Of a DNA stretch of 37,646 bases, positions 267 through 25,987 are shown piece after piece (the first letter of the stretch is position 1; each line of letters opens with the position of its first letter). The notes beneath the pieces were generated by a model. It did not search any database. It was given only the letters and a program-made list of their open reading frames with translations, and had not been told where the DNA came from. Source of the DNA: an uncultured Selenomonadales bacterium (GTDB lineage Bacteria > Bacillota > Negativicutes > Acidaminococcales > Acidaminococcaceae); the NCBI GenBank assembly GCA_900315925.1, contig ONAV01000023.1, forward strand, positions 1-37,646, read 5' to 3'. The position numbers and the translations under genes were made by a program.

Positions 267-2699
267 ATGTTAGCTTCGATTGCGTGGTTAAAGCGCTATG
301 TTGATATTGATGTAACTCCCGAAGAATTGGCTGACAAGCTGACCCGCGTAGGGCTGGAAGTGGAAAGCGTGATTCATCAGGGACAGGGGATCTCCGGCGT
401 GGTGACCGGTAAGGTTACTGCCATTGAGAAGAATCCAAAAAGCGACCACCTGTGGGTGTGCCAGATGGATTACGGCAGCGGCGAGATTGTACAGATCCAG
501 ACCGGCGCCCAGAATGTAAAGCTGGGGGACATCGTTCCTGTGGCTACGTTGGGCGCGGAACTGCCTAACGGCATGAAACTGAAAAAAGTAAAGATGGCGG
601 ACGTGTATTCTTACGGTATGCTGTGCAGTGCGGCGGAACTTGGCATTGACAACAAGCTGCTGCTGCCGGAACAGCGGGAAGGGATCCTGATCCTTTCTCC
701 GGATACACCCATCGGCAAAGACATTAAAGAGGTGCTGGGCCTTAACGATACGGTGCTGGACATTGACCTCACCGCCAATAAACAGGATTGCTTCTGCATG
801 ACGGGCATTGCCCGGGAAGCGGCGGCAGTGCTGGGTAAAACGATGCGCATGCCGGACACCAGCGTAAAGGAAGCGGCCGGCGGCGACGTCCACGACATGC
901 TGCGGGTTGCCATTGAGATTCCGGAACTGTGCAGCCGCTTCACCAGCCGCGCGCTGAAAAATATTAAGATCATGCCGTCGCCGGACTGGATGCAGAACGA
1001 ACTGCGCGCCTGCGGTGTTCGTCCCATCAGCAATGTAGTTGACGTGACCAACTATGTGATGATGGAACTGGGACAGCCTATGCACGCCTATGATTACGAC
1101 ACGCTGGCCGGTCAGGCCCTCATTGTACGCCGGGGTAAAGCAGGGGAACACCTGCAGACCCTGGACGATCAGGACCGGGAACTGACGCCGGACATGATCA
1201 CCATCGCGGATACGGAAAAAGCCGTGGGCCTGGGCGGCGTTATGGGCGGTCTGATCACCGAAGTAACGGATAAAACCAAAACCGTTATTCTGGAAGCGGC
1301 AGCTTTCAACGGCCCGTCGATCCGGCGTACCTCCAAAGCGTTGGGCCTGCGCAGTGAGGCTTCCATGCGCTTCGAGCGGGGCGTGGACATTGCCAACTGC
1401 CATCGCGCGCTGGACCGGGCGGCGCATCTGCTGGAAGAAATGGGAGCCTGCGAAACGGTCTGCGGTATTGCGGACGCGTACCCGGTGCCCTATCATCCCG
1501 CAGTGATTACCGTAACGCCGGAAACCATCAACACCCGTATCGGCGTGAATATTCCCAAAGAGGAAATGATCGCGATTCTGCAGCGTCTCCAGTTTGACGT
1601 GAAGGAAGACAACGGGGCGTTAGTAATTACGGCGCCTACCTGGCGGCAGGATGTGACCTGCGATGCGGATATTTCCGAGGAAATCGCCCGCATGCATTCC
1701 TACGATAAAATCGAAAGTCACAATCCGGAACTGGCCCTGCGCCAGGGCAAGGAAGACCCCATGGAAGAAGTGAAGAGCGAAGCGGAAGATTATCTGGCCT
1801 CTGCCGGTCTGGACGAAGTGATGACCTATACCTTCATCCATCCGTCTTTTGTGGATAAGATGATGTTGAAAGCAGACGACGCCCGCCGCAACGTAATCAG
1901 ACTGATGAACCCCATCAGCGACGAGTTCGGCGTGATGCGCACCACTATGCTGCCCAGCCTGCTGAACACGGCGGCCTATAATCTGGCCCGGCAGGCGGAA
2001 AGCGTGAAGATTTTTGAAGTGGGCCGGGTGTACCTGCCCAAGTCTCTGCCTCTGACCGAACATCCGGAAGAACGCCGGGTGATCGGCGCGGTGATGAGCG
2101 GCCGCCGCAATGAGCTGACCTGGACCAGCGGCAAGGACAATGTGGACTTCTACGATATGAAGGGCGTAGTAGAAGGATTGCTGGCGAAGATGCAGCTTGC
2201 AGATTATGAGCTGGCTGCCTGCGAAGAGCCCTACATGCATCCGGGCAAGAGCTGTGTCGTAAAAGCGGGAGAAAAGGTCATCGGTTATTTTGGCTGCCTG
2301 CATCCGACTGTTGCGGCAAACTTTGATGTTCCGGAAGAGACCTATGTGCTGGAACTGGAACTTGCAACCCTGGCTGAATCCGCTCTGCGGGTTCCCCAAT
2401 ACACGCATCTGGCAAAATTCCCCGGTACCAGCCGCGACATTGCGGTAGTGGTTCCCAGGAACGTTACCATGCAGGAACTGGAACGTGTGCTGCGGGCCAA
2501 CGCCGGCGAACTGCTGAAAGATATCCGCGTCTTCGACGTGTACACCGGTAAACAGGTAGCGGAAGGCTGCAAGTCCGTGGCCTTTAACCTGACTTTCCAG
2601 GCAGAGGACCGCACCCTCACCGACGGGGAGATCGATCCTATCATCAAAAACGTGGTGGAAAAAGTGGCGGAAGCCTATGCGGCGGAGCTGAGAAAATAA
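267..2699 (+). CDS. pheT: Phenylalanine-tRNA ligase beta subunit
   Basis: This 810-residue protein has the usual length for bacterial PheT. An N-terminal tRNA-binding (EMAP/OB) domain lies at about residues 40-150, with the AEKNPKSDHL-type segment. The B3/B4 editing domain covers about 210-390, with RFTSRALKNI and the GLRSEASMRFERG segment. The B5 domain and catalytic-like core follow, and the C-terminal ferredoxin-fold anticodon-binding domain begins near KFPGTSRDIAVVVP. The ATG is preceded by GGGAGGGA. It works with PheS upstream as the alpha2-beta2 tRNA-Phe ligase and proofreads Tyr-tRNA-Phe. Nothing looks damaged. No clear terminator was seen in the 175 bases that follow. Confidence 0.98.
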   Translation: MLASIAWLKRYVDIDVTPEELADKLTRVGLEVESVIHQGQGISGVVTGKVTAIEKNPKSDHLWVCQMDYGSGEIVQIQTGAQNVKLGDIVPVATLGAELPNGMKLKKVKMADVYSYGMLCSAAELGIDNKLLLPEQREGILILSPDTPIGKDIKEVLGLNDTVLDIDLTANKQDCFCMTGIAREAAAVLGKTMRMPDTSVKEAAGGDVHDMLRVAIEIPELCSRFTSRALKNIKIMPSPDWMQNELRACGVRPISNVVDVTNYVMMELGQPMHAYDYDTLAGQALIVRRGKAGEHLQTLDDQDRELTPDMITIADTEKAVGLGGVMGGLITEVTDKTKTVILEAAAFNGPSIRRTSKALGLRSEASMRFERGVDIANCHRALDRAAHLLEEMGACETVCGIADAYPVPYHPAVITVTPETINTRIGVNIPKEEMIAILQRLQFDVKEDNGALVITAPTWRQDVTCDADISEEIARMHSYDKIESHNPELALRQGKEDPMEEVKSEAEDYLASAGLDEVMTYTFIHPSFVDKMMLKADDARRNVIRLMNPISDEFGVMRTTMLPSLLNTAAYNLARQAESVKIFEVGRVYLPKSLPLTEHPEERRVIGAVMSGRRNELTWTSGKDNVDFYDMKGVVEGLLAKMQLADYELAACEEPYMHPGKSCVVKAGEKVIGYFGCLHPTVAANFDVPEETYVLELELATLAESALRVPQYTHLAKFPGTSRDIAVVVPRNVTMQELERVLRANAGELLKDIRVFDVYTGKQVAEGCKSVAFNLTFQAEDRTLTDGEIDPIIKNVVEKVAEAYAAELRK

Positions 2700-2874
2700 G
2701 AAAAAAGTGTGAAAAGGGTTGCTCCCACTGTAAAATAAAGGTAAAATAAATAGTGGTATGTTATTTGGAAAGCTTTTGTTTTTATCTTTCTTTTTAAAAA
2801 GGAAAATGGTAGACGGGCTTTCCTGCTGCCCTGTTTAAATCCGGCCTTACGGCCTTAAGAAGGGAACATTTTAT

Positions 2875-4074
2875 ATGGAAAACAAAGAACGTTTAGTTGG
2901 TACTGTATCCAGAGGCATCCGTTTACCCATCATCCGTCAGGGCGATAACCTGGCAGACATTGTAACGGACAGCGTATTGAAAGCCGCGGCAAGCGAAGGC
3001 TTTGCCCTGCGTGACCGGGATGTCATCTCCATCACGGAATCCATCGTGGCCCGCTCTCAGGGAAACTATTGCTCCGTAGATGACATTGCGGCGGATGTGA
3101 AAGCGAAGTTGGGCGGCGAGACGATTGGCGTCATCTTCCCAATCCTGTCCCGCAACCGGTTTGCCATCTGCCTGCGCGGTATTGCCAAAGGCGCAAAGAA
3201 AGTGGTGCTGATGCTGAGCTATCCTTCCGATGAAGTAGGCAACCATCTGGTAAGCCTGGATCAGATTGATGAAGCGGGCGTGAATCCGTTCAGCGATGTG
3301 CTGACCCTGGAAAAATACCGTGAACTGTTCGGCGCAACGGTTCATGAATTCACCGGCGTGGATTATGTTGACTATTATAAGGAACTGATGGAGTCCAGCG
3401 GCGCGGAAGTGGAAGTGATCTTCGCCAACCATCCGGAAGCCATTCTGAAATATGCGGACAAGATTTTGAACTGCGACATCCACACCCGTGCCCGCACGAA
3501 ACGGATTTTGAAAAAAGCCGGCGCGAAAGTGGTCTGCGGTCTGGATGATATCATGACGACGTCTATTAACGGCAGCGGCTACAATGAAAAATACGGTCTG
3601 CTGGGTTCCAACAAATCCACGGAAGACAAGGTAAAACTGTTCCCGCACCAGTGCCAGTCCCTGGTGGAAGAAATCCAGGAACGGGTGCTGAAAGCTACCG
3701 GCAAACACGTGGAAGTCATGGTATACGGCGACGGCGCCTTTAAAGACCCCCAGGGCAAAATCTGGGAACTGGCGGATCCGGTGGTTTCCCCAGCCTTTAC
3801 CAGCGGTCTGGTGGGTACGCCCAATGAACTGAAACTGAAATATCTGGCGGACAATGATTTTGCGAACCTGTCCGGTGAAGAGCTGAAGAAAGCTATTACC
3901 GACAGTATCGTGAAGAAGAGCGGCAGCCTGGTTGGCAACATGGCGTCTGAAGGCACTACGCCCCGTCAGCTTACCGACCTGATCGGCTCTCTCTGCGACC
4001 TGACCTCCGGCTCCGGCGACAAGGGAACCCCGGTTGTTCTGGTACAGGGCTATTTTGACAACTATTCCAATTAA
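2875..4074 (+). CDS. CofE-like protein (coenzyme F420-0:L-glutamate ligase family)
   Basis: This 399-residue cytoplasmic protein resembles the F420-0:gamma-L-glutamyl ligase family. Near the N-terminus it has the family-like stretch RDRDVISITESIVARSQGN (residues about 46-64), and further on NPFSDV and GDGAFKDP. Known CofE enzymes add glutamate to coenzyme F420. No other F420 gene is visible here and Negativicutes are not known F420 producers, so a different acceptor is likely; that is inference. The ATG follows an AAGAAGGGAAC ribosome site. The gene is isolated by 175 bases upstream and ends at a strong hairpin terminator. Family assignment is good; substrate unknown. Confidence 0.8.
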   Translation: MENKERLVGTVSRGIRLPIIRQGDNLADIVTDSVLKAAASEGFALRDRDVISITESIVARSQGNYCSVDDIAADVKAKLGGETIGVIFPILSRNRFAICLRGIAKGAKKVVLMLSYPSDEVGNHLVSLDQIDEAGVNPFSDVLTLEKYRELFGATVHEFTGVDYVDYYKELMESSGAEVEVIFANHPEAILKYADKILNCDIHTRARTKRILKKAGAKVVCGLDDIMTTSINGSGYNEKYGLLGSNKSTEDKVKLFPHQCQSLVEEIQERVLKATGKHVEVMVYGDGAFKDPQGKIWELADPVVSPAFTSGLVGTPNELKLKYLADNDFANLSGEELKKAITDSIVKKSGSLVGNMASEGTTPRQLTDLIGSLCDLTSGSGDKGTPVVLVQGYFDNYSN

Positions 4075-5190: not shown

Positions 5191-5239
5191 TTGCAACTTG
5201 CGAATGCGGCTTGCAAATTGCAAAGATATCATCTATCAA
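5191..5239 (+). promoter_or_regulatory. Possible pckA promoter/operator with three TTGCAA copies
   Basis: The self-complementary hexamer TTGCAA occurs at 5191-5196, 5211-5216 and 5218-5223. The second copy could serve as a -35 element, with TATCAA at 5234-5239 after a 17-base spacer. The start codon of pckA is 32 bases further on. The clustering is visible in the sequence; the role is inferred. Confidence 0.35.
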
Positions 5240-5270
5240 AAACAAAAGATTAGGAGAGAGGTTTAGGAGA

Positions 5271-6825
5271 ATGGCAGTTTTGAAGTTGGAACAGTACGGT
5301 ATTACCGGTGCGACAGAAATCATCCACAATCCGTCCTACGAATTCTTATTCGAAGAAGAAATGAAGTCCGGCCTGGAAGGATATGAAAAAGGCCAGCTAA
5401 CCGAGCTGGATGCGGTGAACGTCATGACCGGCGTTTATACCGGGCGTTCCCCAAAAGACAAGTACATTGTCATGGATGAAAATTCCAAAGATACGGTGTG
5501 GTGGACGACGCCCGAATACCCGAATGATAACCATGTCATGAGTGAAGAGGTATGGGCCAGGGTGAAAGCGCTGGCCGTGAAGCAGCTCTGCGGAAAGCGG
5601 CTGTTTGTGGTGGATGCGTTCTGCGGGGCCAACAAGGATACCCGCATGGCGGTGCGTTTCATTATGGAAGTGGCCTGGCAGGCGCACTTTGTTAAGAATA
5701 TGTTTATTGCCCCTACGAAAGAGGAACAGGAAGATTTCAAACCGGATTTTGTAGTGTACGCTGCGTCCAAAGCAAAAGTGGAGAACTACAAGGAACTGGG
5801 CATCAATTCGGAAACCTGTGTTGCATTTAACATTACCAGTCACGAACAGGTGATCCTGAACACCTGGTACGGCGGCGAAATGAAAAAGGGCATGTTCTCC
5901 ATGATGAACTACTACCTGCCGTTGAAGGGCATTGCTTCCATGCACTGCTCCGCCAACACGGACCTGAAGGGCCAACCGCTACCTTATCGGCGACGACGAG
6001 CACGGCTGGGACGATAACGGCATCTTCAATCTGGAAGGCGGTTGCTACGCCAAGGTCATCGACCTGGACAAAGAGTCCGAACCGGACATCTATAACGCCC
6101 TGCGTCGCGACGCCCTGCTGGAAAACGTGGCCGTTGATGCAGCCGGGAAAGTGGATTTCCACGACAAGAGCGTAACGGAAAACACCCGCGCTTCCTATCC
6201 CATCAGCCACATTGAACATAACGTGAAGAAAATCCGCGCCACATCTTCCGGCCCTGCCGCGAAGAATGTGATCTTCCTTTCTGCCGATGCCTTTGGCGTA
6301 CTGCCTCCGGTTTCCATCCTGACACCGGAACAGACAAAGTACTATTTCCTGTCCGGCTTCACGGCCAAACTGGCCGGAACGGAACGGGGCATCACCGAAC
6401 CGACGCCGACTTTCTCCGCCTGCTTCGGTCAGGCGTTCCTGGAACTGCACCCGACGAAATATGCGGATGAACTGGTGAAGAAAATGGAAAAATCCGGCGC
6501 GAAGGCGTTCCTGGTGAACACCGGATGGAACGGAACCGGCAAGCGCATCTCCATTAAAGATACCCGCGGCATCATCGACGCGATCCTGAACGGCGACGTA
6601 AACAAGGCTCCCACCAAAAAGATTCCGATTTTTAATCTGGAAGTTCCCACCGCGCTGCCGGGGGTTGATACCAATATTCTTGATCCGCGGAATACGTACG
6701 TGAAAGCTGCGGAGTGGGACGCCAAGGCCAAAAATCTGGCAGAACGGTTTATCAAAAACTTCAAAAAATATGAAGGAAACGCGGAAGGCAAGAAGCTGGT
6801 AGCGGCAGGACCGAAGCTGGATTGA
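5271..6825 (+). pseudogene. pckA: ATP-type phosphoenolpyruvate carboxykinase, disrupted by internal deletion
   Basis: PEP carboxykinase converts oxaloacetate plus ATP to PEP, CO2 and ADP. The first part (5271-5972, 234 residues) is intact and includes the substrate-binding TGRSPKDK. It ends at [11 protein letters not shown] and then reads out of frame to a stop at 6017. The second part resumes in another frame at base 5974 with [16 protein letters not shown] and continues to the normal C-terminus at 6825. Comparison with the family shows that about 21 residues are missing at the junction, including the kinase 1a P-loop GLSGTGKTT. A loss of about 62 nt fits both the missing residues and the frame change. 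As read, no active enzyme can be made. The ATG is preceded by TTTAGGAG, and a terminator follows the gene. Real gene decay and an assembly error both remain possible. Confidence 0.9.
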
Positions 6826-13476: not shown

Positions 13477-14592
13477 TTGAAAGAAGAAGATATTAAGAAG
13501 CTGATCGATAAATTACAGTATTTTGATTATGATAAACTGCTGAACAAGATCCGTAAAAATGTGAAGAAGCCCAGCGTCCTGGTGACAGGCGGAACCGGTG
13601 TGGGGAAGAGCAGCCTGATCAATCACCTCTTCGGTATGGATGTGGCGAAGACAGGAAACGGAAAGCCTATGACAGACCGTATCACCCGCTACGAGCCGGA
13701 AAACTATGACGTGGTGCTGTACGATACCCTTGGCTACGAAGTAGGGGAAGACAAGCAGCAGCAGTTTTATAAAGATGTAATCGGTTTTGTGAAGAAAGCC
13801 AACGGGCAGAGTGATATAAAGAAGCATGTGCATCTTGCCTGGTACTGCATCTCTGCTGCCAACAAGCGGGTGACCCCTACGGACCTGGACGCCATTGCGG
13901 CGCTGGACGGTTTAACAGAAGTCTGCGTGGTGCTGACCCAGATTGATGCGGCCACCATGGTGGAACTGGACGAGATGAAACAGGTACTGCAGAAGAAACT
14001 GCCGAAGACTTCGGTGTTCCTGGTGAGCATCGATCCCCGGGTGCCGGAAGAAAAGATGCAGTGGAACGGACTGCTGGGGTGGTCGGTGGATCATTTGGAT
14101 GCAGGGCTGCAGCTGGCATTTGCCCAGGCTCTGGGGCAGGAACTGCATGTGAAACATGTCCAGGCGGATAAACTGATCCATCGTTACGTGGCGGCAGCTG
14201 CCGGTGCGGTGGTGTGTCCGCTGCCCATGACGGATTCCGCAGCGCTGATCGCCATTCAGACTACGATGGCTACCCATCTTTTTAACTTCTGGGGTATTGA
14301 CCGGGGGACGGATAAGATTAAGGAAGTGTTTGTCAACGTGGTGGTCGCCAATACGGGGCGCATCTTCTCCCGTTCGCTGCTGAAGCTGATTCCGGGGGCC
14401 GGCTCCATTGCGGCAACTGTGGTGAACAGCGGCGTGGCTACTTCCTTCACTTACGCGTTCGGCAGAGCGGTGAACGAGGTCTGCTATAAAACCGCATCCC
14501 GTATGGCCAACGGGGAAAAAGTGGACATTACGTCCGCCTTTGCCATGGACGTGATTATGAAGTTAATACAGAAGTATTATAATAAAAAGTAG
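13477..14592 (+). CDS. Era-like GTPase with hydrophobic C-terminal domain
   Basis: A 371-residue TRAFAC-class GTPase. The P-loop GGTGVGKSS is at residues 38-46, the G3 motif DTLGYE at 83-88 and the G4-like TQID at 154-157 (TQID rather than NKxD). From about residue 225 the protein becomes hydrophobic and glycine/alanine-rich (AAAAGAVVCPLPMTDSAAL; later LLKLIPGAGSIAATVVNSG), as in the DUF697/YcjF-type tails that associate with membranes. It starts with TTG, supported by AGGGGGC 7 bases upstream. It follows the Rrf2 regulator and precedes a second GTPase. A membrane-stress or envelope role is only inference. Confidence 0.8.
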   Translation: MKEEDIKKLIDKLQYFDYDKLLNKIRKNVKKPSVLVTGGTGVGKSSLINHLFGMDVAKTGNGKPMTDRITRYEPENYDVVLYDTLGYEVGEDKQQQFYKDVIGFVKKANGQSDIKKHVHLAWYCISAANKRVTPTDLDAIAALDGLTEVCVVLTQIDAATMVELDEMKQVLQKKLPKTSVFLVSIDPRVPEEKMQWNGLLGWSVDHLDAGLQLAFAQALGQELHVKHVQADKLIHRYVAAAAGAVVCPLPMTDSAALIAIQTTMATHLFNFWGIDRGTDKIKEVFVNVVVANTGRIFSRSLLKLIPGAGSIAATVVNSGVATSFTYAFGRAVNEVCYKTASRMANGEKVDITSAFAMDVIMKLIQKYYNKK

Positions 14593-14694
14593 AAACCGTT
14601 TAAGCATGTTCAGTGCAATGCAGCACGCAAACCGATAATACAGCGTGATGCGTAAGTTCAAGACCATTCTGTGAAAATGCAGGTGACATAGTTT

Positions 14695-15870
14695 ATGCCA
14701 ATCAGAATCTGGAACCGGACGGGAGGCAAAGGGCCGGTGAAACGGGAAAATGCTTCTTCCCAGACGGAAAAGGCCGGACAGGATAACCATGACCGGCAGA
14801 AAACGGAAAACAAACCCAAACCACATAAACCTACAGTGCGGAACATTCTGGTGCTGGGCAAAACCGGTGTGGGCAAAACTTCCTTGTTAAATTATCTGTA
14901 CGGCTTTGATTTGCCCACGGGGGCAGGTCTGCCCAAAACAGGGAAAGGCTTGCATGAAAATGTGATCACCCGCAACGGAACGGCGTATCATATTTTCGAT
15001 ACCTGGGGCATCGAGGCGGATTCCATGCCGGAGTGGCGGAAAGAAGTGCTGGCCCTGGTCCGGAAGCGTAACACTTCGCCCCGTATCAGCGACTGGTTCC
15101 ACGCAGTGTATTACTGTTTTTCCGCTAACACGGCCCGGATTGAGGAAGCGGAGATCGAAGAGATCCTTGTACCGCTGCTGCAGTCCGGATGCAAAGTAAT
15201 CATAGCGCTGACCAATGCGGAGGATGGGTTCCGGAAGCAGGAAAAGCTGGAAGGCATGAAAGAGTATTTGCAGGAAGAACTGACGAAACGCCTGCATCGG
15301 GACCCGCAGTTGGTAATAATTCCGGTTGTCAGTATTGCCGGCGAAACCCTGGCGGGAGATTCCATTTCCCGTTTCGGCCGTACCGAATCGCTGGAAGCGG
15401 CGCAGTATAATCTGGCGGACGATATTGAAAAACGACTGCCCGCCATTTACAAAATGAATGTGATGAACAAGCTGGGCGCCTGGAAAGAGCGCAGCCTGCT
15501 TCTGCTTGCAAACGGCAAAATCAGTTTTGTATTGAACAACAATTCCGCCAAGCAGCTGATCGATCTGATCAATTACGATCTGCTGAATACCTTCGGCGCA
15601 ATCGATGCGGACGGGGATAAGATGGAAGCGGAAGCCAACGAATACCTGCTGACGGCGGGCAACAAAAAGCCCCTGGACCGGCGCTGGCGTCCGGAGTTCG
15701 GCCGTATCACCTATGTAAAGGGTTACGAGTACAGCAAAGGCCTGTCCGTGGGTTTGGCGTTAGATGTGGCATCCAGCCTGCTGCGCTCCGCCAAAAGTAT
15801 CCGGGAAAATTTAAGCCGCCGGGTCATAAAGACCCACGCGGCCATTATAGATAGTATGCAGAAAAAGTAA
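14695..15870 (+). CDS. Second GTPase of the Era/Obg-like superfamily
   Basis: A 391-residue protein. The first 45 residues are charged and probably disordered. The P-loop GKTGVGKTS lies at 55-63 and the G3 motif DTWGIE at 102-107. The G4 position reads TNAE (173-176) instead of the usual NKxD or TKxD, so guanine specificity may be altered. The C-terminal half is soluble and, unlike the first GTPase, lacks a glycine-rich hydrophobic tail. It is related to the first GTPase in the G-domain but is not a recent duplicate. ATG with weak ribosome site AGGTG. The gap to the upstream gene is 102 bases. Confidence 0.75.
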   Translation: MPIRIWNRTGGKGPVKRENASSQTEKAGQDNHDRQKTENKPKPHKPTVRNILVLGKTGVGKTSLLNYLYGFDLPTGAGLPKTGKGLHENVITRNGTAYHIFDTWGIEADSMPEWRKEVLALVRKRNTSPRISDWFHAVYYCFSANTARIEEAEIEEILVPLLQSGCKVIIALTNAEDGFRKQEKLEGMKEYLQEELTKRLHRDPQLVIIPVVSIAGETLAGDSISRFGRTESLEAAQYNLADDIEKRLPAIYKMNVMNKLGAWKERSLLLLANGKISFVLNNNSAKQLIDLINYDLLNTFGAIDADGDKMEAEANEYLLTAGNKKPLDRRWRPEFGRITYVKGYEYSKGLSVGLALDVASSLLRSAKSIRENLSRRVIKTHAAIIDSMQKK

Positions 15871-16109: not shown

Positions 16110-17633
16110 GTGCTGAAAGAAATAGCGAAAGAAAAACTCAGTGAAGTCGTCAAGGCGATTGTGCCAATCGTTGCCATCGTCCTGATTTTGTCCGTGACCA
16201 TTGTGCCTATGCCTACCCATGTGGTCATGGTCTTCTTTTACGGCTGTATCCTGCTGATGATCGGCATGGTATTTTTTACCATCGGGTCTGAACAGGCTAT
16301 GGAGCCCATGGGGAAACAGGTAGGCGCCCGCATCACAAAAACGAGGAAACTTTATCTGATATTGCCGTTAGGGCTTTTATTAGGATTTATGATTACCATC
16401 TCTGAACCTGACCTGCAGGTACTGGCGAACCAGGTCCAGTCCATTCCCAACAGTGTTCTGATTATGTCGGTGTCGGGAGGCGTGGCGTTTTTTCTGGTCA
16501 TGGCTCTGGTCCGCATGGTAGTGGGAATCCCACTGCAGCGAATGCTGCTGTTCTTTTATGTGATTGCGTTCGTGCTGGCATACTATACTCCTCGCGATTT
16601 TCTGGCCGTGGCATTTGATTCCGGCGGTGTGACCACCGGACCGATGACGGTGCCTTTTATCATGGCTTTTGGTGTGGGCGTTTCTGCGTTGCGCGGTACC
16701 AAACACTCCTCTCAGGACAGCTTCGGGCTGATTGCGCTTTGTTCAATCGGACCTATTATTTCTGTCTTGCTGTTGGGTCTTATTTTCCGTCCGGAAAATG
16801 CGACATATGAAGCGATTACCGTACCGAAGGTTTTACATTCCATGCAGCTGGGCGGTATGTTTATGGATGAAATTCCGAATCAGGTTCGCGAAATCGCGCA
16901 GGCGGTGGTGCCGATTGCTATTTTCTTTGCCATCTTCCAGACGATTTTACTGCATCTGGAAAAGAAAGCGCTGGTTCGTATCACGAATGGTATCTTTTTT
17001 ACGTTTATCGGCCTGGTTCTGTTTCTGACCGGCGCCAACGTGGGATTCATTCCCGCAGGTTTTGATTTAGGTAGTATTCTGGCGGCCATGTCGTATAACT
17101 GGATTATCGTTCCTATCGGTATGTTGATTGGATATTTTATTATTAAAGCAGAACCGGCGGTTTATGTGCTGATGAAGCAGGTGGAAGATATTACTGACGG
17201 CGCCATCAGCGGACAGGCATTACAACGCAGCTTGTCTATCGGTGTGGCGATTTCGGTAGGACTGGCTATGGTGCGGGTATTGACCGGGATTCATCTGTTC
17301 TATATGCTGATTCCGGGGTATGCGATTGCGCTGCTGCTGACATTTGTTGTGCCTCCGATTTTTACGGCCATTGCTTTCGATTCAGGCGGCGTGGCGTCCG
17401 GTCCCATGACAGCGACCTTTTTACTTCCTTTTGCCATGGGCGCCTGCATGACGGTGGGCGGCAATGTGGTTACAGATGCCTTTGGGGTGGTGACGATGGT
17501 TGCGATGACGCCGTTGGTTGCAATCCAGTGTCTGGGACTTGCCTACAAGCTGAAATCCAGGAAAGTGCAGAAACCGCAGGTTCAGGAAGATACGCTGGAA
17601 GGTTTCGGCGATTATGACATTATCGATCTGTAG
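16110..17633 (+). CDS. DUF1538 membrane protein, internally duplicated
   Basis: A 507-residue polytopic inner-membrane protein with about 12 or more hydrophobic segments. It consists of two homologous halves. EPDLQVLANQV (about residue 99) matches EPAVYVLMKQV in the second half. AFDSGGVTTGPMTVPF (residue 168) matches AFDSGGVASGPMTATF (residue 422). The SGGV/TGPMT motifs within membrane segments resemble a pore or substrate site. GTG start at 16110, preceded by CAGGAGGC; the longer frame upstream runs into the repeat. A tandem PII-like protein is encoded 13 bases downstream, with its ribosome site overlapping this stop codon. A transport function controlled by that partner is inferred, by analogy to AmtB-GlnK. 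Confidence 0.82.
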   Translation: MLKEIAKEKLSEVVKAIVPIVAIVLILSVTIVPMPTHVVMVFFYGCILLMIGMVFFTIGSEQAMEPMGKQVGARITKTRKLYLILPLGLLLGFMITISEPDLQVLANQVQSIPNSVLIMSVSGGVAFFLVMALVRMVVGIPLQRMLLFFYVIAFVLAYYTPRDFLAVAFDSGGVTTGPMTVPFIMAFGVGVSALRGTKHSSQDSFGLIALCSIGPIISVLLLGLIFRPENATYEAITVPKVLHSMQLGGMFMDEIPNQVREIAQAVVPIAIFFAIFQTILLHLEKKALVRITNGIFFTFIGLVLFLTGANVGFIPAGFDLGSILAAMSYNWIIVPIGMLIGYFIIKAEPAVYVLMKQVEDITDGAISGQALQRSLSIGVAISVGLAMVRVLTGIHLFYMLIPGYAIALLLTFVVPPIFTAIAFDSGGVASGPMTATFLLPFAMGACMTVGGNVVTDAFGVVTMVAMTPLVAIQCLGLAYKLKSRKVQKPQVQEDTLEGFGDYDIIDL

Positions 17634-17646
17634 GAGGTAGCGGACC

Positions 17647-18333
17647 GTGAGCGAATTATATTTTATGATGACCATCACGAGTAGGGATATGCTTCCGAAA
17701 TTTTTAGAAGCATTTGACAAAAATAACCTGCCGATCGGTTTTGTTTCATTGGGATACGGTACTGCAAAAGACGATATTCTGGATATGCTGGGACTGGTCC
17801 GGTCGGAGAAAGCAGTTGGGATGACAGTGGTTACCGGCGCAGGATGGGAAGAAGCAAAATGGTATTTGCGAAAAAGGATGTACATTGACGTGCCGGATAC
17901 AGGCATCTCATTCATTATTCCCATGAGCAGCATCGGCGGTAAGCGGGAACTGGCGTTTCTGACAGCGGGGCAGAATTACCGGAAAGGAGAAGAATCGGTA
18001 ATGAAAGATACAACGATGGAATTATTGGTGGTAGTCAGTAACCAGGGACATAACGATCTTGTCATGGATGCGGCCAGGGGCGCCGGCGCTTACGGCGGCA
18101 CGGTAATACATGCCCGGGGTACCGGCATGAACCAGGCGGAACTTTTCTTCGGGGTGTCGCTTGCTTCTGAAAAAGACCTGACCTTCATCGTAACGAAAAA
18201 AAACCAACGCAATGCCATCATGTCGGCCATTATGAAAGAAGCCGGCATGGATACGCCGGCCCAGTCCATTGTTTTTTCCCTGCCGGTTACGGATGCAGTG
18301 GGACTGAATACGGGGGGCGAAGATACCAAATAG
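17647..18333 (+). CDS. Tandem PII-like signalling protein
   Basis: A 228-residue soluble protein with two ferredoxin-like PII folds. The first half (about 1-110) is divergent (SELYFMMTITSRDMLPKFL, VGMTVVTGAG). The second half (about 115-220) is closer to canonical PII: MELLVVVSNQGHNDLVMDAA, then GGTVIHARGTG at about residues 151-161, the nucleotide-binding segment of PII proteins. Classical GlnB/GlnK are about 112 residues and trimeric; a double-domain chain is unusual. GTG start with AGGAGG overlapping the preceding stop, so it is translationally tied to the DUF1538 gene. It probably binds an adenine nucleotide and gates the membrane protein. A strong terminator follows. Confidence 0.82.
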   Translation: MSELYFMMTITSRDMLPKFLEAFDKNNLPIGFVSLGYGTAKDDILDMLGLVRSEKAVGMTVVTGAGWEEAKWYLRKRMYIDVPDTGISFIIPMSSIGGKRELAFLTAGQNYRKGEESVMKDTTMELLVVVSNQGHNDLVMDAARGAGAYGGTVIHARGTGMNQAELFFGVSLASEKDLTFIVTKKNQRNAIMSAIMKEAGMDTPAQSIVFSLPVTDAVGLNTGGEDTK

Positions 18334-18396
18334 ATTGCGCTTGGGAGCAGGAGATCGCAGCTTTTCATGAATTGAAATGATAACATTAAGAAGACA

Positions 18397-18446
18397 ACAA
18401 GTCCCGTTATGCCGGTTTTGTTCAGCATAACGGGACTTGTTTTTAT
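18397..18446 (+). terminator. Rho-independent terminator after the DUF1538/PII unit
   Basis: A perfect 16-bp stem (ACAAGTCCCGTTATGC / GCATAACGGGACTTGT) with a 12-base loop is followed by TTTTTATT. It may also stop - strand transcription arriving from the ABC binding-protein gene, though the T tract on that side is poor. Confidence 0.9.
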
Positions 18447-21013: not shown

Positions 21014-24000
21014 GTGAAACTCACAGCAAAACAAAGAAAATACTATAGCGAGTTGTCCCGCAAAATCGCGGTGGGGCTGGCCTCCGGACTGCTCTTTGTG
21101 GGAATTGGGCAGTACCCGTCCATCGCGTTTGCGCATCCGGCTCCATCCACAACAGGCAGCTACAGCACTACTGGCGATGTGTCCGGAGGGAGTTATACCG
21201 TGGGGTCTGGTCTGGCTGTTACCACCGAGGCCGCCGGCGGCGCTTCTGTCAATCCGAACAAACGGGCGGTTTCGGTTACCAACAGCACCCTGACGGTGAA
21301 TGGTATGCTGAGTAACAGCGGCTACGGCGGTTATGCTTACCGCGACGCTCTCGCTGCTGCGACGGCTGCGAAAAACAGCCTCGTGCTTCCCGGCACCATT
21401 AAGGTCACTGCCGACGACGACAGGCTGTACGGAGCCTTCGGCGGCTTTGCCTATGCCGGACTGACGAACGCTCCTGTCGGCAGCAATGGTTCGCTGACTG
21501 CCGACGCCTCAGGCAATACGGCTACAGGTACGGGCGCAGACTCCACATTCCATTTCGTTACAGATTTCAGCAAGGTAACCATTCCGGAAGTTACGGATTA
21601 CAGCCCGGGAACCATTTCCCCGGAAGCCGGCCTGGAACTGAAGTCGGCCCTTATGGGCGGCTACGCTGTGACTTCGGCAACAAGCACGGCAGGCGCTGCC
21701 GGGAATCGGAACGCGCAGTCCATCCGTGCGTCGGCCGTAGCCGATAACAATACGGTAACGTTTTCCACACTGAATCTGCAGCCGGAAGTCGCTGTTACGG
21801 GGCAGGATGGCTCCCAGGGGCAGGCCATTGAGTACCGCAGCATGGTGACGGCGGGCGGCGGCCAGGCCATGGCCCTGAACAATGCCAAGGGAAGTTATGT
21901 GGACCACCGCGATACAAACATCGCTTCTGCCGACGGAAATACATTCACCGTCGGCACGCTGAATTTGGAAGAAAAAGTCAACTCTGTTAAAGCCGAGCTG
22001 GAACAGACCACCACGCTCAGCGGCGGTGACGCGCTGGCCCGGTATCAGTCCCCCTCCTCTATGCAGAAGCGGAAAAGCGACGGCAAGGTTAGCATAATCA
22101 CCGAGAGTTACCAGAATACTACATATACCAATATCATCAATATGGCAACCGCAGACAACAATACGGAAACGCTGAACGCCATTATCCTTGGCGGCAAGCT
22201 CGATACCAAAAGCGGAACCACGCCTACCGACGTGGAGGCCGAGGGAGAGCTGGAAGTACGGGCCGGCCATGCCGAAGCTATCGTATTCCTGAACGATACG
22301 AACTCGAAGCTGAACGGTCTTGAGAATAGCGCCCAGGCCAATGGAAACACCCTGACCGTCAGGAAGGTGGTACAGAATATCGAGCAGAGTACCACCCAGG
22401 ATGATAAAGGAGCTGTCGTCCAGGCCTCCACTGTGACCATGATGCTGCACGGCGGCAATGCCAGGACCGAGGTCACGCAAAACGGTACGAACAACGTAAA
22501 TTGGAAAAATGTCAGGAGTTCCGCTGCGGCGAACAGCAACACGATTACGCTGGAAGACATCAGTTCAAACGTGACGGAAAGCTCCCTGACCAGCGGCGCG
22601 GCTACTTCGGATATCTTGCTCATGGAGGGCACGGGCGCCATGGAGGCGACTGTCGCTTCCAACACGGCCTCGGCTTCCGGCAACACGGCACAGATGGGTC
22701 TCAACGCGCCGGTGAATATGGGCTTGGGCTGCGTCGTCAGCGGCGGCGTGGCCGATGTCTCCGTGGCCGCCCAAAATAATTTCAACAATAACGCCGGTAC
22801 GAACAACGGACTGACGATGACCATAGAAACCATGGATGCTGATGCCAGCAGCAATACCATCAAAGTGGTGGGCAAGGTCGATAGCAGCGGCAACAACCAG
22901 TCCGCCGCCACGACTATCACCGCCAACGGCGGCTCGGCCACGGCAGGCCTGAGCTTCGTCGGCGCCACGACGAATAAATACATAAGCCGGGACACAGCTT
23001 CCTGGCAAAACGGCTCGATTACAGCCAATAACAACACTGTGGATCTGACCACATCGTATACCTATACAGCAGCGGGAAAAGGCGCCCTGAAAAAGGCTGC
23101 CCTTCCCACCTTTACAGCGATGGGCGGCAATGCCAGCGGCAGTCTGGGTAATATGAACACTAACGTTAATGTGACGTTGGGAAATCTGAGACTGGAGAGC
23201 ACTGGCAATGCAATCACCATCAATAACAGTATAGACATTACCGGTGCGCCGAAGGGCCAGCTGGACACGAGCTATACGCTGACCGGCGGTGCTTCTTCTT
23301 TCGGGATTAACAACACGGCACCGGCCCTGACGGACGCGCAGGGGAAAGCGCTGGCAATCACTCCCCAGCCTTTCAACATTGCCAAGGCGTCACCCGTCCT
23401 CATTGCCAGCAGCAATACCATCAACGTAACGGAGACCATTAAAGGAACAGCGGGTTCGGGCAGCGCTTCTTCCAGTTCTGCAACTGTAGATACCATTGAG
23501 GGCGGCAATGCGTCTTTCACCTACCTGGACGATGTAAGCGCCAAATCTGCGGTCAGCCTTTCTCCTACGATTAAAGTTACCGGTAATACGGCTACAATCA
23601 CCAGCACGGATACCAGCAATGGCGACGTCGCATCCATCGAAGGCAGTACCTATTCCGGCGGCACGGCGGCTTCCACTGTCACCAGCGGCAAGGCTCCGGT
23701 AGCAGGCGAAACTGCAGTCACCTATACGGAAGGGAACAAAATATCGCATGCCCCAACGATGACTGTCAGCGGCAACACGCTGACCCTTACCAGCACCTTT
23801 GACGCCTCCGCCAGTACGGCCGGAGACGGGACTACGGTCGGCGTCATCAGCGGCGGCAAGGCGAACATCGATATTGTCAATTACGGTAATAACACTACGT
23901 TTGATGTCAGTCCCAGGGCGGACGTGACGGGCAACACGGCCCGGGTCACTCTGAGCAATGCGGCTGCGAACGGCTCTTTTACAGGTCTTGCCCGGGCTTA

Positions 24001-25987
24001 TGGCGGCGCGGCGGAGATGAACGTCTCCAACGGTTCCGCTGCGTCAAGCTCCAAGGACAGCTCGGGAACCGAGACGAAAACACCGGCCTCCAAGCCTCAG
24101 GGCCTCTCCTTTACTGCTTCGCCGGTACTGAATGCCAGCGGCAACACGCTGACAGTTCTTGACACGGCCAGCGATGGAGCCAGTGCGTCAAAAGCTACAG
24201 GCGTCACGGGCCTTTACGGTGGCCGCTCTGCACTTAAGGTTTCAGATCTTGGCACCGGCACCAGGGCGCTTGCACTTTCTTCTGCCAAATTGACTGCGGA
24301 TAATAACACCGTCACCACAAACCGATCCGCGGTGGATGTCTACGGCGGTCAGGCAGCTCTCGAAACGGATGCCCCTCTCACCGCCTCAAAGCTCACGATG
24401 AGCGCAAGCGGAAACACGGTGAACATCGACGGCAACATTGCCAAAGATGTTTACGGCGGCAACGTTCTGCTTTCATCCAATATAGCGGCAGATACGCCGA
24501 CCCTCAAAGCCGACAACAACACCGTGAACTTCAACGCCGGCAACGTGCTTGGCGTGCTCTACGGCGGCCTGATCAATAACGCCGGGGCGCTAAGTGTCGG
24601 CAGAGGCAACTCGCTGAACGTGAGAGGTATCGGTCTTACAGCAAAAAATATCGCGGCTTTCAACACAGTGACCTTCTTCACTTCGCCCGGGAAGATAAAG
24701 GATACGACTCTTCTGACATTAAACGGAGGTCAGCAGACGGATCTTTCCGGGGTCCAAATCAACACTACGATCCATAAAGATTCTGAATTCGCCATCGGGG
24801 ATGTGGTACATCTTCTCGTCAACGATGCGACCATCAAGACTAATGCGGATACAGTTATTACAAACCCGGTGCAGGGCGCGGTAATAGAATACAAGGGCGC
24901 TGCAAGGTTGAGCGCTGACGGGAAGAGCATCGATTTTATTGGTACAGTCCGTTCCATCACTGAGCAGTCCAAGTCGCTGGCGGAGACCCGGGCCGCCGCC
25001 GCAACCATGTTGAACTCCGGTGCGGACTTCTTCACCTCTGCCGGCATCGCCAATGCGGTCGATGCGGCAGCAGCCGAGGTTAGCGGCACCGCGGACGCAT
25101 CGGCAGGCACACAGTCAGGCGGCGCCTCATCTGATGGCAGCAACGCGCAAAGCGGAAACGGCGCTGCAGGCGAGGCGAAAGCGGTACGGAACGGCAGCTT
25201 TGCTCCTTTCGCAGCCCTTGGCGGATCCGGCATGAGGGCGGAATCCGGTTCCTACGTTGATACGCGAGGCTGGAACATCAACGCGGGCTTCGCCCGTGCC
25301 CTGAAGAACAAGAACGGCACTATGACCTTCGGCCCCATCGTGGAATATGGGTGGGGTAACTACACTTCCCATCTGGACGACGGCACCAGGGGGTCCGGCG
25401 ATACAAAGTTCTTCGGCGCCGGCGTGTTCCTGCGGCAGGACAATACGAACGGTCTCTGGTACGAAGGGAGCCTCCGGGGGGGTCACATGAAGAGTGACTA
25501 CCGGGGCAACCTGAACCGTTTAGATGTGACTTACGATACCAGCAACAACTATTTCGCCGCCCATTTGGGCATCGGTAAAGTGAACAAGGTCAGCGAAAAA
25601 GGAAGCTTAGACATCTACACGAAACTTTTCTACGCCTATCAGGGAAGCGCCGAAGCGGATCTGTCCACCGGAGAGCATTTCGACTTTGGCTCTGTGAACT
25701 CAGTTCGTTGGCGCATTGGAGGCAAATACACGCATCAGGTCAACAAGACGGGGAGCATGTACGCAGGCCTCGCTTACGAATACGAGTTTAAGGGTAGCGC
25801 CACGGCCACCTATCAGGATTTGAGCACGCCCAGCCCGAGTATCAAAGGCGGCAGCGGTCTTTTGGAACTGGGCTATAGGATGAAGCCGGGAGCCAAGGGC
25901 CCGATGACCCTGGATTTCGGTCTGAATCTCTGGACGGGGAAGAGAAGGGGTATTGGCGGCTTCCTTAGCGCAAACTGGAAGCTGTAG
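21014..25987 (+). CDS. Giant autotransporter (type Va secretion) with Asn/Gly-rich passenger
   Basis: A 1657-residue protein. The extended signal region (MKLTAKQRKYYSELSRKIA, then a hydrophobic stretch, cleavage near IAFA, residue about 40) is typical of large autotransporters. The passenger (about 43-1310) has some 17 repeats, each with an [A/V]-[S/D]-[G/N]-NT-hydrophobic motif (ASGNTLTV, ADNNTVTF, VTGNTATI) alternating with GGxA motifs (GGNASFTY, GGKANIDI). This pattern predicts a long beta-solenoid. A helical linker (SLAETRAAAATMLNSGADF) precedes a low-complexity Ser/Gly stretch and the C-terminal beta-barrel (about 1393-1657), which ends FLSANWKL. GTG start with AGGGGG. No protease catalytic motif was recognised. 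Probably an adhesin or surface scaffold. A terminator follows. Confidence 0.9.
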   Translation: MKLTAKQRKYYSELSRKIAVGLASGLLFVGIGQYPSIAFAHPAPSTTGSYSTTGDVSGGSYTVGSGLAVTTEAAGGASVNPNKRAVSVTNSTLTVNGMLSNSGYGGYAYRDALAAATAAKNSLVLPGTIKVTADDDRLYGAFGGFAYAGLTNAPVGSNGSLTADASGNTATGTGADSTFHFVTDFSKVTIPEVTDYSPGTISPEAGLELKSALMGGYAVTSATSTAGAAGNRNAQSIRASAVADNNTVTFSTLNLQPEVAVTGQDGSQGQAIEYRSMVTAGGGQAMALNNAKGSYVDHRDTNIASADGNTFTVGTLNLEEKVNSVKAELEQTTTLSGGDALARYQSPSSMQKRKSDGKVSIITESYQNTTYTNIINMATADNNTETLNAIILGGKLDTKSGTTPTDVEAEGELEVRAGHAEAIVFLNDTNSKLNGLENSAQANGNTLTVRKVVQNIEQSTTQDDKGAVVQASTVTMMLHGGNARTEVTQNGTNNVNWKNVRSSAAANSNTITLEDISSNVTESSLTSGAATSDILLMEGTGAMEATVASNTASASGNTAQMGLNAPVNMGLGCVVSGGVADVSVAAQNNFNNNAGTNNGLTMTIETMDADASSNTIKVVGKVDSSGNNQSAATTITANGGSATAGLSFVGATTNKYISRDTASWQNGSITANNNTVDLTTSYTYTAAGKGALKKAALPTFTAMGGNASGSLGNMNTNVNVTLGNLRLESTGNAITINNSIDITGAPKGQLDTSYTLTGGASSFGINNTAPALTDAQGKALAITPQPFNIAKASPVLIASSNTINVTETIKGTAGSGSASSSSATVDTIEGGNASFTYLDDVSAKSAVSLSPTIKVTGNTATITSTDTSNGDVASIEGSTYSGGTAASTVTSGKAPVAGETAVTYTEGNKISHAPTMTVSGNTLTLTSTFDASASTAGDGTTVGVISGGKANIDIVNYGNNTTFDVSPRADVTGNTARVTLSNAAANGSFTGLARAYGGAAEMNVSNGSAASSSKDSSGTETKTPASKPQGLSFTASPVLNASGNTLTVLDTASDGASASKATGVTGLYGGRSALKVSDLGTGTRALALSSAKLTADNNTVTTNRSAVDVYGGQAALETDAPLTASKLTMSASGNTVNIDGNIAKDVYGGNVLLSSNIAADTPTLKADNNTVNFNAGNVLGVLYGGLINNAGALSVGRGNSLNVRGIGLTAKNIAAFNTVTFFTSPGKIKDTTLLTLNGGQQTDLSGVQINTTIHKDSEFAIGDVVHLLVNDATIKTNADTVITNPVQGAVIEYKGAARLSADGKSIDFIGTVRSITEQSKSLAETRAAAATMLNSGADFFTSAGIANAVDAAAAEVSGTADASAGTQSGGASSDGSNAQSGNGAAGEAKAVRNGSFAPFAALGGSGMRAESGSYVDTRGWNINAGFARALKNKNGTMTFGPIVEYGWGNYTSHLDDGTRGSGDTKFFGAGVFLRQDNTNGLWYEGSLRGGHMKSDYRGNLNRLDVTYDTSNNYFAAHLGIGKVNKVSEKGSLDIYTKLFYAYQGSAEADLSTGEHFDFGSVNSVRWRIGGKYTHQVNKTGSMYAGLAYEYEFKGSATATYQDLSTPSPSIKGGSGLLELGYRMKPGAKGPMTLDFGLNLWTGKRRGIGGFLSANWKL

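Follow-up and report, generated by a model that had tools for sequence, protein, structure and literature searches.

A conserved gene pair couples a DUF1538 membrane protein with a tandem PII-like protein, a candidate regulator of cation/proton antiport in Bacillota

Introduction

What does a PII-like protein do beside a transporter of the DUF1538 family? The question is raised by two genes in a 37,646-nucleotide (nt) stretch of DNA from an uncultured Selenomonadales bacterium (contig ONAV01000023.1, assembly GCA_900315925.1). This whole stretch is here called the window; positions are given in its coordinates, and features lie on the + strand unless stated otherwise. The first gene (16110..17633) encodes a DUF1538 membrane protein of 507 amino acids with two repeats in one chain, a fused UmpA/UmpB-like arrangement, and the second (17647..18333) a tandem PII-like protein of 228 amino acids. 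We find that this pairing is conserved across the Bacillota genomes surveyed, and propose, with a probability of roughly 0.62 for the explanation as a whole, that the PII-like protein responds to a ligand and regulates a monovalent cation/proton antiporter on which it is docked.

The sequence-only reading of this locus had left the substrate of DUF1538 proteins unknown, which is corrected by UmpAB of Halomonas zhaodongensis. This DUF1538 pair, found by complementation of Escherichia coli KNabc, forms a hetero-dimer that carries out Na+(Li+,K+)/H+ antiport (PMC5484666).

Results

The two genes are closely coupled in the window. Both start with GTG, the DUF1538 gene at 16110 with AGGAGG ahead of it and the PII-like gene at 17647, 13 bases beyond the TAG stop codon of the first (17631-17633), which overlaps the ribosome site of the second within TAGGAGG (17631..17637). 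The duplicated DUF1538 protein, the double-domain PII-like protein, their spacing and the ribosome site over the stop are all as the sequence-only reading had described them.

This coupling extends far beyond the window. Of 249 Bacillota genomes, 84 contain DUF1538 and 86 match the tandem PII profile, with both present in 83, DUF1538 only in one, PII only in three (E 8e-13 to 5e-4) and neither in 162. The two lie no more than 1.5 kb apart in 82 of the 83 genomes that have both. In the genome with DUF1538 only (G115), for which no such PII match was listed, the DUF1538 gene is a pseudogene with six stops (locus L190). Genome G276 has the genes apart: its intact DUF1538 gene (L097) has no PII gene next to it, and its tandem PII gene lies on a different contig (L185).

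Gene neighbourhoods were read with our own profiles in 187 loci (L018-L204), made up of the window, seven plasmid loci, 80 genome loci and 99 further genome stretches, five of the latter chosen for a PII match away from DUF1538. The 80 genome loci are the best 80 of at least 575 confirmed and therefore not a random sample; 77 of them are paired and the remaining three are at a contig end. A DUF1538 frame was called in 181 of the 187 loci, and 175 of these 181 also have a PII-like gene. The six that do not are four contig ends (L053, L111, L146 and L147), the pseudogene and the intact separated gene of G276, and in L204 a tandem PII gene lies behind a DUF1538 piece too short for calling. In all 177 counted transporter–PII junctions both genes share a strand and the PII gene comes second, at a median gap of 14 nt, with 54 overlapping and 153 at no more than 60 nt (start codons picked by rule). 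One of the 175, the contig-end locus L076, has a PII fragment on the upstream side of its DUF1538 frame and lacks one on the downstream side. Among relatives of the window, DUF1538 stood beside 12 of 12 further PII loci. A search of DUF1538 neighbourhoods for adjacent PII genes had been suggested in the sequence-only reading as a check, with lack of a conserved pairing as a refuting outcome; these surveys show the pairing to be conserved.

Plasmids give the same picture. From 72,556 plasmid records, searches with DUF1538 and with a single-domain PII as the query returned the identical nine, seven of which were also returned by the window's own PII protein, and the genes are adjacent in all nine (by annotation, except for L019 and L021). 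Three of the nine are from Alphaproteobacteria and have two split DUF1538 genes with one single-domain PII gene; coverage beyond Bacillota consists of these three loci, two of them from strains of one species. Chance or passive operon neighbourhood is contradicted by the proximity in 82 of 83 genomes and by the identical nine plasmid records, and can be set aside with near certainty. It is very probable that the DUF1538 and PII-like genes are functionally coupled.

The membrane protein is a full member of its family. It matches PF07556 with 453 bits (cut-off 22.6) in two copies that each exceed the cut-off, repeat 1 at 16167..16784 (236 bits) and repeat 2 at 16914..17540 (230 bits). With the NCBIfam models for UmpA and UmpB (NF041627 and NF041628) it scores 155 of 490 and 132 of 500 bits, short of both equivalog cut-offs. 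An AlphaFold2 (AF2) model has helices throughout, with a mean predicted local distance difference test (pLDDT) score of 85.8. Each repeat contains a Glu-Pro pair, E99-P100 (16404..16409) and E348-P349 (17151..17156), which is invariant in our alignments A1 (12 sequences) and A3 (62 sequences). The FDSGG of the first FDSGG..TGP motif (16614..16628) and that of the second FDSGG..SGP motif (17376..17390) are mostly conserved in both alignments, the first with FDASG variants in A1. These EP and F-D-S-G-G..G-P motifs are common to fused halves and split DUF1538 forms.

The PII-like protein consists of an N-domain (17647..17958) and a C-domain (18010..18312). The Pfam P-II family (PF00543) matches the C-terminal half only, with 30 bits against a cut-off of 25. 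A reading with the C-domain as the sole PII-like domain was rejected, as the N-terminal half is also PII-like by profile and the PII order of strands and helices is present in the predicted fold of both halves. Single PII domains of this type have the consensus GGTI..GRGTGIHE....IEPEKE....KPGxGIAF. In the window, the N-domain has an altered T-loop base and the B-loop VPDTGISF (17890-17913), in which one of two glycines is replaced by D, and the C-domain keeps the T-loop base as GGTVIHARGTG (18094-18126) and has lost the B-loop (TPAQSIVF).

Comparison of two classes of tandem, the window's (n=94) and another (n=31), places these changes in a pattern. In the window's class both B-loop glycines are found in 88 of 94 N-domains and 13 of 94 C-domains; for the basic residue at the T-loop base the counts run the other way, with 15 of 94 N-domains and 85 of 94 C-domains. 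The window's own N-domain, its first B-loop glycine being the one replaced, falls outside the 88. In the other class both glycines are found in 29 of 31 C-domains and in 6 of 31 N-domains, the second glycine in all 31 of the latter. The two domains of the window's class are complementary in motif loss, an observation that is new here. The sequence-only reading had noted that the domains differ and that only the second keeps GGTVIHARGTG; the difference is indeed systematic, but it is one of complementary loss rather than of an intact and a decayed domain.

None of the 192 PII open reading frames (ORFs) in the surveyed loci, among them that of the window, contains the uridylylation-site or the C-terminal signature of nitrogen PII proteins; the patterns used were PROSITE-like, and both matched a control GlnB sequence. 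In alignments with solved PII chains, the single-domain profile has I, H, I and G where R38, Q39, K90 and R101 would stand and a variable residue in place of R103; it keeps the lysine at the K58 column (E. coli numbering of the ATP/2-oxoglutarate residues). With the canonical signatures absent and most of these residues replaced, sensing of ATP and 2-oxoglutarate is therefore not to be assumed. The nearest solved chain to the single-domain profile is 9p1x_H (P-II family protein, 43 bits), followed by GlnB/GlnK-type chains, which sets the family apart from the PII-like proteins CPII, SbtB, PstA and CutA. The window tandem alone matched no solved chain below E 0.02.

Past a linker that follows repeat 2, the transporter ends in GDYDIIDL (17607..17630), a candidate docking peptide that reads GDYDIIDL, GDYEIIDL or GDYDIIEL in the window's genus. 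In all, 68 of 142 complete fused-DUF1538 C-termini, the window's genus included, end with [IVL][IVLF][EDM][hydrophobic]. Among these 68 the last four places, which the search pattern itself partly fixes, hold I in 67, I in 68, E or D in 68 and L in 65, and D stands at -7 in 56. The linker before the tail has an entropy of 2.9-3.7 bits per place in the same sequences. The AF2 model gives the linker low confidence and the tail as a short helix.

Presence of the tail goes together with the state of the PII C-domain. Across 123 loci with tandem PII, the C-domain B-loop is lost in 58 of 58 with a terminal tail, in 19 of 32 with an internal tail-like motif and in 6 of 33 without the motif. On the transporter tree the tail and B-loop-loss traits undergo 6 and 4 changes, so that few events underlie the association. 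The conserved D-x-x-I-I-E/D-L tail and its co-occurrence with C-domain B-loop loss are new here. For the tail as the element that docks the PII-like protein on the transporter, we see the case for and against as evenly balanced.

The surveyed loci differ in architecture. A fused DUF1538 gene with a tandem PII gene is found in 121. Two DUF1538 genes occur with one single PII gene in 16, with a tandem PII gene in 11 and with two single PII genes in 5; one DUF1538 gene stands with one single PII gene in 9, and a fused DUF1538 gene with two single PII genes in 3. The remaining loci are doubled (3), have split or odd frames (3), lie at a contig end (4) or are PII-less (6). One PII domain tends to accompany single or split transporters and two PII domains a fused transporter, and a fused DUF1538 gene with just one PII domain was not seen in the surveyed loci. 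In L049, L061 and L070 two complete transporter and PII units follow each other in tandem, each with its own PII gene.

Matches away from DUF1538 are few. Eight of 105 listed places matching the tandem profile are of this kind, and five were inspected. In L188 a single-domain PII gene of the same type (1765-2103 of that locus) directly follows an antiporter gene with Na_H_Exchanger and TrkA_C domains (262-1755). In L186 another (3688-4047) lies about 260 nt after a PNTB transhydrogenase beta-subunit frame (908-3430) of 841 amino acids with three PNTB stretches. L185 is the separated copy of G276, and L187 and L189 have other neighbours. The single-PII-domain profile (A4) matches 122 of the 249 Bacillota genomes. 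It scores 85-160 bits with most of the C-domains and single domains that accompany DUF1538, and 22-52 bits in re-searched genomes without DUF1538, except for one match at 69 bits (G108, L187); the low-scoring matches may be ordinary PII proteins.

Of 14 genomes of the window's genus (G000-G013, window included), 10 carry the PII gene. Of 23 other genomes of the family only two have a match, with a pair of the other class. On the transporter tree the genus groups with sequences from Oscillospirales/Clostridia (local support 0.976), and this grouping together with the rarity in its own family suggests horizontal gain.

Downstream of the pair, 62 bases past the PII-like stop, lies a long hairpin of 19 pairs (18396..18441, no strand assigned). 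A scan found it terminator-like on the - strand only; by our own reading the stem is followed on the + strand by TTTATT, and the hairpin may therefore be a terminator closing the two-gene unit. No site stands out as a likely promoter (3 promoter-like sites found, 3.5 expected). Immediately 5' of the pair, two consecutive genes (13477-15870) encode different P-loop GTPases, both with MMR_HSR1 matches and the first also with DUF697. Elsewhere in the window, a gene for ATP-dependent phosphoenolpyruvate carboxykinase (5211-6822) is apparently split, by inactivation or assembly error; the Pfam match in 6127-6822 spans the profile end only (287-464 of 465), and the first part, upstream in another frame, was recognised by eye. 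An open frame of 1657 amino acids (21014-25987) has no Pfam match at E 1e-5.

Discussion

Our results are consistent with a model in which the two genes form an operon for a DUF1538 (UmpAB) family antiporter of monovalent cations and protons, together with its dedicated PII-like regulator. The regulator would act on the cytoplasmic face, with a small anionic molecule or nucleotide as its ligand, and its binding or release would switch antiport activity. In the window's branch the tandem domains would divide the work, the N-domain with its B-loop and the C-domain with its T-loop base, and the D-x-x-I-I-E/D-L peptide of the transporter would probably keep the regulator docked. That the PII-like protein regulates the transporter directly is likely, and by analogy with UmpAB the window transporter is, with slightly less assurance, a monovalent-cation antiporter. 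A sharper version may be put forward tentatively, although we consider it doubtful: the N-domain would be the ligand sensor and the C-domain, its B-loop lost, the receptor for the antiporter's D-x-x-I-I-E/D-L peptide. The regulator would then be permanently tethered to an antiporter that is not known to form trimers and gate it from the docked state, an asymmetric switch in contrast to the reversible T-loop plug of GlnK.

UmpAB belongs to the same Pfam family as the window transporter, and UmpA and UmpB correspond to homologous halves with seven predicted segments each. Unlike UmpAB, the window protein is fused, lies below both equivalog cut-offs and has a linker and IIDL tail, and the terms PII and P-II have no occurrence in the searched text of PMC5484666. 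The comparison with AmtB and GlnK drawn in the sequence-only reading holds as an analogy of transporter and regulator in a conserved gene pair, which GlnK and AmtB also form. It does not extend to the transporter itself: only PF07556 was above cut-off in the Pfam scan, and an AmtB-type (Amt/Rh) ammonium channel was rejected. PII proteins block AmtB (GlnK) and SbtA (SbtB) by binding (PMC10710835), and these systems resemble the window in placing a small protein of PII fold next to a transporter with many helices. They differ in that the window PII protein is a tandem without canonical PII signatures and its transporter a two-repeat protein with no known trimer. A PII-NG protein is coded beside the CzcABC proton/cation antiporter in Geobacter (GSU2134; PMC7726332), likewise a PII-like protein by a proton/cation antiporter, although CzcABC is a transporter of another type.

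The transporter could instead carry other cargo, such as another cation or a small metabolite, with the PII-like protein sensing the substrate or its product and the function of UmpAB not extending to the fused Bacillota forms. The low scores of the window protein with the UmpA and UmpB models leave room for this, as does the lack of a clear solved fold for the transporter, and to our knowledge a single DUF1538 pair has been characterised. However, each half qualifies as a full PF07556 member and carries the EP and F-D-S-G-G..G-P motifs that are also found in split forms. A genome-based predictor lists DUF1538 in its table of key families for pH adaptation (PMC13255231), which fits ion/proton exchange, and PII of the same type follows the Na_H_Exchanger-type antiporter in L188. 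We therefore regard other cargo as unlikely, though it is the strongest competitor of cation/proton antiport.

Two further alternatives concern the role of the PII-like protein, and both appear improbable, more so than a different cargo. In one, sensing falls to the transporter and the PII-like protein acts as its messenger: by being sequestered at the membrane it would inform other targets of the ion or proton status, with no gating of the transporter. A small protein released from the membrane could work elsewhere, GlnK is described as sequestered by AmtB in the same way, and in G276 both genes are kept although they are apart (L097 and L185). A messenger of this kind sits poorly with a PII gene that is nearly always at the transporter, even once per unit in the doubled loci L049, L061 and L070. 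In the other, the PII-like protein is a ligand-free structural or assembly subunit. The constant gene pairing agrees with this, as do the replacement of most canonical PII ligand residues and the loss of B-loop glycines in one domain per tandem in most of the window's class. Yet most members of both classes retain at least one domain with the B-loop glycines and one with the T-loop base. The cloned UmpAB fragment, for which PMC5484666 lists four ORFs and no PII gene among them, was moreover active in E. coli; transport activity therefore does not require the regulator, which is what a switch would lead one to expect. Direct regulation of a cation/proton antiporter by a ligand-responsive PII-like protein is the reading that we prefer.

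We found no report of the DUF1538–PII pair in the literature searched, most subscription literature lying outside that search, and the words PII or P-II did not occur in the DUF1538 and UmpAB papers searched for them. Public annotation already names the neighbouring genes, the PII neighbour only as a nitrogen regulator, and DUF1538 is still labelled a domain of unknown function despite one pair being a proven antiporter. The conserved tail offers an immediate target for mutation. PII control has been stated to be restricted to transporters able to work as trimers (PMC10710835), and if the pair is a PII-controlled antiporter this restriction becomes directly testable. Should the pair prove to be a PII-controlled Na+/K+/H+ antiporter, PII signalling would extend to ion and pH homeostasis in many Bacillota.
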